Shown in pieces: positions 36,110 through 38,427 of a stretch of 53,308 bases of DNA. Source of the stretch: Candidatus Izemoplasma sp. (GTDB lineage: Bacteria; Bacillota_I; Bacilli_A; Izemoplasmatales; Izemoplasmataceae); contig SLOP01000017.1 of NCBI GenBank assembly GCA_007132465.1, positions 1-53,308 on the forward strand. The letters run 5' to 3'. Made by a program: the position numbers and the translations under genes. Position 1 is the stretch's first letter; each line of letters begins with the position of its first letter. The notes below the pieces were generated by a model. It was not told the DNA's origin, searched no databases, and worked only from the letters and a program-made list of their open reading frames with translations.

Positions 36110-36311
36110 TGTACGCGTAAAAAAGCCAGTGTTTTGTGAGATGTTGTGGGATTTTGATGGTCACGCGAGGTGATTTGCTTCCGCATGGCGGGATATGAAA
36201 CCTGTAATAAAGTCCTTAACCCAGACAAAACGCCTCTCATCATGCATGCATTTGTGTGGTTTTTGCGTCTTGAGCGACTCTCTGATGTATCAGGCCATAA
36301 GCATCTTTACC

Positions 36312-36338
36312 TTGACAAGTTTAGTCGTGTGATACACT
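36312..36338 (+). promoter_or_regulatory. promoter of the ATC-start membrane-protein gene
   Basis: A perfect TTGACA at 36312-36317 and TGATACACT (extended -10, TACACT at 36333-36338), with a short 15-base spacer. The transcript would begin near 36345. Confidence 0.55.
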
Positions 36339-36367
36339 GAAACTATCTAAAGGCATGAGGTGATACG

Positions 36368-36637
36368 ATCGATACTCAGACGTTTATTTCACTCGCCGTC
36401 ATCGCTGCCATCAGTTTCGCATTTGCGTCATTGGTCACCTTCATCATGAAGAAAATTCACCGTGCGTTGGTCTTCGTTTTACCGACAGGGCTGACGTTTC
36501 TATCTGGTTATTTCGCGCTGTATATCTTTAGTGGCGAGGCCGGATTGGGTGCGATTTTCCTTGTCGGGTTTATGGGTATAGCAATCATCGCAGCGCTCAT
36601 TTCCTGGGTCGTGGCCTTGTATGGTTATTTTCGGTGA
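36368..36637 (+). CDS. small two- or three-helix membrane protein, apparent ATC start
   Basis: 89 residues if initiation is at ATC 36368. The upstream in-frame stop is TGA at 36356-36358, and no ATG, GTG or TTG occurs in frame before TTG 36431, which lies inside the first helix. A GAGGTG ribosome binding site (36357-36362) precedes ATC by 5 bases, exactly as it precedes ATG in other genes here. Helices: about residues 8-26, 35-53 and 60-84, separated by a MKKIHR turn and the EAGLG loop. I recognise no family. Downstream is the PfpI gene on the same strand, 81 bases away. Confidence 0.65.
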   Translation: MDTQTFISLAVIAAISFAFASLVTFIMKKIHRALVFVLPTGLTFLSGYFALYIFSGEAGLGAIFLVGFMGIAIIAALISWVVALYGYFR

Positions 36638-36718
36638 TGGTGAGCATGAATAATGTGCTTTATTACGATGACGCTTCATCCATCCATTCACCACCTTTGA
36701 ACGGAAGGAGGAATACGC

Positions 36719-37225
36719 GTGAAACATGTGGCGATATTGATTGCAGACCTCTTTGAGGATAACGAACTGTTTTACCCCTATTTCAGGCTGCTCGAGGCAG
36801 GTCATCGTGTCGATCTCATCGGCGCTGAAGCAAACGCTGTCTACCGAAGCAAACGAGGCGCCAAAGCGATGAGCGACAAAGCATCTAACGATGTTTCTGC
36901 CGACGACTACGATGCCCTCATCATCCCCGGTGGTTACTCGCCAGATCACATGCGACGTACCCAGGCAACCGTGCGGCTTGTCAGCGACATCGACACCCAG
37001 AAGAAACCCATCGCCGCCATCTGTCACGGTCCGTGGATGATGGCTTCGGCATGCGACATTAAAAACCGGACGCTCACCGGTGTCGCTTCCATCAAGGACG
37101 ATCTCGTTCATGCCGGCGCTGACTTTGTGGATCAAGCCGTCGTCGTTGATGGCCATCTCATTACCTCAAGAACACCCAAGGACTTACCGGCCTTCATGAA
37201 AGCCATTCTCCGCGCATTAACCTAA
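36719..37225 (+). CDS. DJ-1/PfpI family protein
   Basis: 168 residues, GTG start after AAGGAGG. The family includes stress proteins, glyoxalases and deglycases of the YhbO/PfpI group. The triad-like residues are visible: Glu13 in LFEDNELFYP, and Cys102-His103 in AAICHGPW at the nucleophile elbow. The central DYDALIIPGGYSPDHMR and the closing GHLITSRTPKDLPAF are typical of the type 1 glutamine-amidotransferase-like fold. The length is normal. Substrate unknown. Confidence 0.92.
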   Translation: MKHVAILIADLFEDNELFYPYFRLLEAGHRVDLIGAEANAVYRSKRGAKAMSDKASNDVSADDYDALIIPGGYSPDHMRRTQATVRLVSDIDTQKKPIAAICHGPWMMASACDIKNRTLTGVASIKDDLVHAGADFVDQAVVVDGHLITSRTPKDLPAFMKAILRALT

Positions 37226-37295
37226 CTATCCTTCACGGACGAGGTGACTATTGTCTTCAACATGAAACAACCCGCATCTTGCTTGTGTACGATAG

Positions 37296-37333
37296 AAAAC
37301 CGCCTGTCACGTCCAACGTGACAGGCGGTTTTT
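37296..37333. terminator. bidirectional terminator between pfpI-like and GlsB-like genes
   Basis: A perfect 17-bp stem (AAAACCGCCTGTCACGT and its complement) with a 3-base loop, with T runs on both strands. Confidence 0.9.
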
Positions 37334-37401
37334 AGTTGTGACAACAAACCATGAAACACCAATCCACCCACGTGATACCGATGGGGGGGTGGTCATGTTA
37401 T

Positions 37402-37641
37402 TTACATACGGCGCAGAAGCCAAATCAACACAATGGCTCCACCGATGGCGATGCCAAACCCTTCAATGCTGAACGCACTCACCGATCCAAAACCGAAAAG
37501 CGACGCAATCCAGCCACCCAACACCGCGCCGAGCAACCCAACAACAATGTTGCGAATTAATCCGCGGCGGCGGGTTTTCATCAAAATGCTTGCGATCCAG
37601 CCTACCAGGGCACCAAAAAGTATCCAACTTAATATTCCCAT
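37402..37641 (-). CDS. GlsB/YeaQ/YmgE family membrane protein, copy 2
   Basis: 79 residues, with AGGAGG 7 bases before ATG. It is a paralogue of the protein at 32375-32614: FGALVGWIASILMKTRRRG, then three-helix layout, ending IAIGGAIVLIWLLRRM. The two differ mainly in the middle loop (GFGSVSAFSIEG against GIGSLERFTAEG). They are stress-associated membrane proteins of unknown mechanism. The two genes are 5 kb apart with unrelated neighbours, so they are not a simple tandem pair. Confidence 0.9.
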   Translation of the reverse strand: MGILSWILFGALVGWIASILMKTRRRGLIRNIVVGLLGAVLGGWIASLFGFGSVSAFSIEGFGIAIGGAIVLIWLLRRM

Positions 37642-37661
37642 GCGTATTCCTCCTATACTTA

Positions 37662-37670
37662 ATCATACCA
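37662..37670 (-). promoter_or_regulatory. extended -10 promoter of the second GlsB-like gene
   Basis: TGGTATGAT on the minus strand, 21 bases upstream of the start. It is a further example of the TGG-extended box. Confidence 0.5.
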
Positions 37671-37775
37671 CGAACACGGAAAAAACGTGTGTGATATCTG
37701 CTTTGTGGTCCGCTTAATTATGCGTCGTTCCCATCTTCTTTTGGATGGGTGTTCACCAACGTATCATACGGCTGC

Positions 37776-38381
37776 TCACTGGGTTTGTTGAGGGTTTGTT
37801 GAGGGTTTGTGGGGTGAGGGTGCGTCGCGTCGGGAAAGTCGCTTAAGCGATTCGGCCACCTCGACGACCCAAATCATGTGGGTGAAATCATGTTTTTTGG
37901 ATGGAATTTTGTAGGTCGGTTCACCAAACATCCTGAGCCAGATGGCTTTGGATGTTTCAATGATGGAATCAAAACAGACGGTGGTGACCCCGTGGTGGTG
38001 TAAGTGAGTTAAAAGGTAAATGAGAAGGCTTCTGCCATACCCTCGTTTTTGCATGGATGGTGTCACATAGAGCGATCCGATTTCCGTGGTGTCGATGAGT
38101 GCTTTTTTTGTGCGTTTCAAGATGCCCCAGTTCGGCGGTGAGCCATAAGCGATGGTGGCGACAAGCCTATCTTCGACAAACGCCAAGAAATACCGACTCT
38201 GCTTCGTTTTCATCGCTTTGTCGAACTGTCGTGTTTTAAAGGTGAGCTCTTCAACGGGGTTATGGTGTTTATCCGTCTCCTCACCTTCAAAGGCATCGCG
38301 AATTACCTCGTCCCATAAAGCTTGGACCACGTTGCGGTCTGCGTGCGTTGCTTCTCGAATGTGCATGTGTTCTTGTGACAT
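37776..38381 (-). CDS. GNAT family N-acetyltransferase
   Basis: 201 residues; AGGAGG lies 5 bases before ATG. The GNAT fold is shown by MHIREATHADRNVVQALWDE at the start (split in parts), TTEIGSLYVTPSMQKRGYGRSL (acetyl-CoA pyrophosphate loop QKRGYG), then LLTHLHHHG and SKAIWLRMFGEP, the C-terminal strand and helix. The substrate cannot be told. The last 12 codons contain a short direct repeat (ACAAACCCTCA twice), which gives the C-terminal KPSTNPQQTQ. Confidence 0.85.
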   Translation of the reverse strand: MSQEHMHIREATHADRNVVQALWDEVIRDAFEGEETDKHHNPVEELTFKTRQFDKAMKTKQSRYFLAFVEDRLVATIAYGSPPNWGILKRTKKALIDTTEIGSLYVTPSMQKRGYGRSLLIYLLTHLHHHGVTTVCFDSIIETSKAIWLRMFGEPTYKIPSKKHDFTHMIWVVEVAESLKRLSRRDAPSPHKPSTNPQQTQ

Positions 38382-38427
38382 GTGTCCTCCTGTTTATCGC
38401 ATCAAGTGAAGTGCATGGCGTTTGGCA

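Follow-up and report, generated by a model that had tools for sequence, protein, structure and literature searches.

Can a gene begin at ATC, as the reading frame of a small membrane protein at positions 36368 to 36637 (forward strand) of this contig appears to do? Gene callers as a rule take ATG, GTG and TTG only as start codons, so that a gene of such a kind is missed or shortened to a two-helix stump. The window, by which we mean the whole stretch of DNA analysed, is one entire contig of 53,308 bases in a genome of 1.43 Mb and 45 contigs. Here GAGGTG (36357-36362) is followed by ATACG and then by ATC (36368-36370), from which the frame reads DTQTF...GYFR and is closed by TGA at 36635-36637, giving 89 codons when the ATC is counted and 88 after it. 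An in-frame TGA (36356-36358) lies directly upstream and overlaps the GAGGTG. No in-frame ATG, GTG or TTG occurs between this stop and TTG at 36431, the earliest canonical codon of the frame (codon 22), and the next is ATG at 36446 (codon 27). These elements agree with the preliminary description of the site, which had named the GAGGTG, the five bases, the ATC, the 89-residue frame and TTG 36431 as its first canonical codon. It had also stated that the same distance separates GAGGTG from the start at other genes of the window; the spacing there is similar, at 5-6 nt, but not identical.

The arrangement of GAGGTG and ATC can, by itself, arise by chance in a sequence of this kind, and it is homology that lifts it above chance. 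When the window was searched for GAGGTG followed after 4-7 bases by ATC, ATT or ATA and at least 40 open codons, just one other place was found, antisense to a 988-residue gene. For each of the 37 further window genes that were examined, a canonical start, ATG or GTG, could be assigned. We also considered a genetic code in which TGA specifies tryptophan, which would abolish the upstream in-frame stops. It was rejected given that 5 of the 15 genes sampled terminate with TGA, that TGG occurs 57 times and that homologues start at 36368.

The Shine-Dalgarno sequence, GAGGTGAT (36357-36364, forward strand), offers 8 contiguous pairs to the usual anti-Shine-Dalgarno sequence AUCACCUCC and ends 3 nt before the ATC. 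The predicted duplex has -12.5 kcal/mol with this anti-Shine-Dalgarno sequence, which is assumed here, since an exact search of the assembly did not find the 3' end of the 16S rRNA. A strong Shine-Dalgarno sequence thus lies at the proper distance from the ATC, as in the class of non-canonical starts against which IF3 discriminates, yet it is no stronger than those at several ATG genes in the window. The extended Shine-Dalgarno motif defined in Staphylococcus aureus (AGGNAT/AGGNGT; PMC13009471) does not occur at the site in its AGG-N-AT, AGG-N-GT or GGG forms, the window having AGGTGATACG instead. The RNA fold over the start region was no better than that of shuffled sequences, and Rfam returned no credible match there.

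Upstream of the Shine-Dalgarno sequence, the extended -10 element TGATACACT (36330-36338, forward strand) predicts a transcription start near 36345. In the window, and also in five of six homologues (L006, L007, L009, L010 and L011), the stretch TGNTANACT precedes the start by 24-31 nt; counted over both strands of the window (106 kb), it has 5 occurrences. A promoter composed of TTGACA and TACACT had been proposed for the gene. TACACT survives as part of the extended -10 element conserved in homologues, whereas TTGACA (36312-36317, forward strand), a possible -35 element, stands only 15 nt from TACACT, a suboptimal spacing, and the pair was not among the matches of a consensus promoter scan with 16-18 nt spacing.

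Searches within the same family recovered five full-length homologues in related genomes, 26-62% identical to the window protein: G007 (64% in these searches), G010 (58%), G042, G040 and G011. The first of these is also present as PWOH01000132.1. A Mollicutes metagenome assembly was the only relative recovered from the named genome collection. The codon aligned on the ATC is ATG in G007, G010, G042, G040 and a frameshifted copy in G002 (loci L005/L006, L007, L009, L010 and L012) and GTG in G011 (L011). Consequently, the window carries a codon other than ATG, GTG or TTG exactly where its homologues start. The N-terminal sequences MDPQT, MDAQA and MELET align on IDTQT of the window, with ATG at the ATC column, which bears out the conserved N-terminus that the preliminary description had proposed to look for; homologues starting at TTG 36431 or ATG 36446, which would have spoken against its proposal, were not seen. 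A Shine-Dalgarno sequence at comparable spacing precedes the starts of all five full-length homologues and of the G002 copy. A further copy, in G034, reads GAGGTG-AAATC-ATC-ATG, with ATG one codon later, and has an internal TAG. In more distant family members, from the same order and class, the start is mostly an ATG or GTG displaced by a few codons.

Since both the distance to the Shine-Dalgarno sequence and the position of TGNTANACT are kept in homologues, the start is fixed at 36368 independently of the identity of its codon, and by our own estimate from the alignments this placement is very nearly certain. The sharing of start column, Shine-Dalgarno sequence and promoter with relatives further indicates that 36368 is the ancestral start and that the C at 36370 is a derived base. 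The best explanation of these alignments is descent from an ATG-started gene, the third base of whose start codon would now be C. The gene is single-copy, no second copy in its own genome and no second strain having been found, and an exact pattern around the start had no match in viral contigs.

The encoded protein, of 89 residues and three predicted helices, belongs to an unnamed membrane protein family, and no Pfam or NCBIfam family scored above its curated cut-off. An AlphaFold2 model derived from six sequences places helices at residues 3-28, 34-54 and 58-88, with low confidence (mean pLDDT 69.6). TTG 36431 had been described as lying inside helix 1; in the model both it and ATG 36446 fall within this first predicted helix, which a protein begun at either codon (22 or 27) would be expected to lose. 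Differences from the G007 gene (L006) are distributed 31/15/63 over the three codon positions, and those between the two functional relatives 32/17/63. Among the three proteins compared, only five residues are unique to that of the window, all of them conservative replacements (I to V, V to A, S to A, R to K and T to S), against 10 lineage-specific residues in G007 and 14 in G010. The bias of substitutions towards third positions and the small number and conservative nature of the lineage-specific residues suggest that the protein stayed under selection, and to judge from its sequence it is without signs of decay. The gene has a GC3 inside the range spanned by its neighbours; its codon usage is some two standard deviations lower than that typical of 87-codon stretches in the window.

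The gene is part of a variable segment of four genes (36138-38427), which encode the small membrane protein and DJ-1/PfpI-like, GlsB/YeaQ-like and acetyltransferase-like proteins, the last three names being judged by eye from translations. This segment is missing in the closest relative, G003, where 171 nt separate the helicase from the glutamate dehydrogenase gene as compared with 2441 nt in the window; the helicase-side flanking DNA of the two is 77% identical. In the same-genus copy of G002 (L012:1501-1760), frameshifts and stops appear after about 40-50 codons. Both this copy and the broken one of G034 (L008) could be pseudogenes or assembly errors. Three further genomes of the genus, 79-87% complete, yielded no copy of the gene. 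Its frameshifted state in G002, its apparent lack in these three genomes and its absence from the syntenic locus of G003 make it dispensable in the genus, so that a start lost only very recently has to be reckoned with as a rival explanation.

The initiation factor gene infC provides a reference for unusual starts in this lineage. It begins with a non-AUG codon in all 13 genomes examined (that of the window and 12 relatives), in each case behind a GGAGGTG-type Shine-Dalgarno sequence. In the window's own genome (L015:1226-1767) the start is CAGGAGGTGACACGC-ATT, and ATT is also used at least in G002, G007, G010, G011, G048 and G022, while ATA is found in G045 (L067) and G032. A clear ATC occurs in one genome, G042 (L065), as AGGAGGTGACACCACC-ATC; G038, G016 and G029 each present two neighbouring non-AUG candidate codons, one of which is ATC. 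The survey extends the non-AUG start of infC across an uncultured family, ATC included. The IF3 encoded in the window's genome is ordinary when aligned to solved IF3, and a scan of 30 tRNA loci in its assembly, which is 99% complete, turned up no tRNA-Met. Note that a hairpin-like repeat with a T-run, of the type GTGTGGGTA...TACTCACAC-TTTTT, lies upstream of infC in most relatives (L064-L066 and others) and resembles an attenuator leader.

Taken together, we favor the reading that the organism has ATC at 36368 and uses it weakly as a start, with a probability of roughly 58%. The claim of an ATC start rests on one base in one metagenome-type assembly, and it is possible, if less probable, that the C at 36370 either reflects an error of the consensus or belongs to a minor strain variant, and that the true start codon of the gene is the ATG of its relatives. 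A single base separates the start codon of the window from theirs, the assembly is fragmented (45 contigs) and offers no second copy or strain for comparison, and genuine AUC starts are rare enough for an error or variant to have comparable prior odds. However, the consensus of the window bears no signs of poor quality, its 37 other genes being open with assignable canonical starts, and AUC, AUU and AUA starts do occur in the clade, as judged by infC homology. Were the base real, it might still be a fresh loss of the start in a gene on its way to becoming a pseudogene, with residual translation that serves no function. We consider this unlikely. The accessory nature of the gene speaks for it, given the frameshifts and stops of G002, the internal TAG of G034, the three same-genus genomes that appear to lack a copy and the syntenic absence in G003; but all 88 of the 88 downstream codons are intact, substitutions are conservative, GC3 is typical, and with Shine-Dalgarno sequence and promoter both preserved the loss would need to be very recent.

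Initiation at another codon of the frame is the least probable explanation and a highly improbable one. TTG 36431 and ATG 36446 are canonical and in frame, and the frame also contains ACG 36365, which begins three bases ahead of the ATC. The first two, however, lie within helix 1 and are not preceded by any Shine-Dalgarno-like stretch, the ACG is too close to the Shine-Dalgarno sequence, and none of these three columns is the start of a family homologue.

If the ATC is indeed the weak start that we favor, a short-leader mRNA beginning near 36345 would be held on the 30S subunit by pairing of GAGGUGAU, and fMet-tRNA would decode AUC with a mismatch at the third position, in a complex disfavored by IF3. 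Output of the full three-helix protein would then be at most about one tenth of that obtained with AUG. Such a lowered level is more likely to be tolerated than selected as an IF3-sensitive control, since no relative shares the ATC. Rare starts of this kind had been put forward as usually regulatory, but conservation does not support this here: ATG or GTG stands at this position in all close full-length relatives, so that the locus does not represent a conserved regulatory non-AUG start of the infC or ccpN type. It seems doubtful to us that a functional AUC start was selected in this species so as to keep the small membrane protein low and tied to the level of IF3, which would give this Mollicutes-like lineage another IF3-sensitive gene besides infC.

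Published cases make weak initiation at AUC, together with the infC starts of the lineage, the expected outcome if the base is real. AUC is counted among bacterial start triplets (PMC4611024), and expression of a Bacillus subtilis rny fusion persisted, though much reduced, when its start was mutated to AUC (PMC10303841). In S. aureus, AUU and AUA starts yield about 10% of the AUG level (PMC13009471). Streptomyces uses ATC for infC, and its sigR has a GTC start that is repressed by IF3 behind AGGAGGTG (PMC5472188). A reconstruction of 61,358 ancestral AUG starts recovered a switch from AUG to AUU once, and AUC is absent from its list (PMC5622118). A real C at 36370 would provide a rare natural AUC start outside infC, whose ancestral ATG can be reconstructed from relatives, and a simple test case of how far a poor start codon can be made up for by a strong Shine-Dalgarno sequence.

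The small membrane protein gene would probably join, as a weakly used member, the known class of non-canonical starts discriminated by IF3. With infC, whose start in the same genome is ATT, it shares a codon of the AUU/AUC/AUA group behind a strong Shine-Dalgarno sequence and the discrimination by IF3 that this would entail; infC, however, is autoregulated and keeps its rare codon across bacteria, whereas the ATC is confined to one species and to an unrelated membrane protein. Streptomyces sigR (PMC5472188) is similar in being a gene other than infC with a non-canonical start that ends in C and a strong Shine-Dalgarno sequence of the AGGAGGTG type, but its codon is GTC and its regulation by IF3 was established by experiment, while the ATC is a start predicted from sequence. 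The S. aureus genes cvfC1 (AUU) and ccpN (AUA) likewise combine a start of the AUU/AUA class with strong Shine-Dalgarno pairing in a small or regulatory gene (PMC13009471). They differ in having been ribosome-profiled and, for ccpN, in a codon common to B. subtilis, whereas the gene described here has AUC, a spacer outside their extended motif, and a start codon specific to its lineage.
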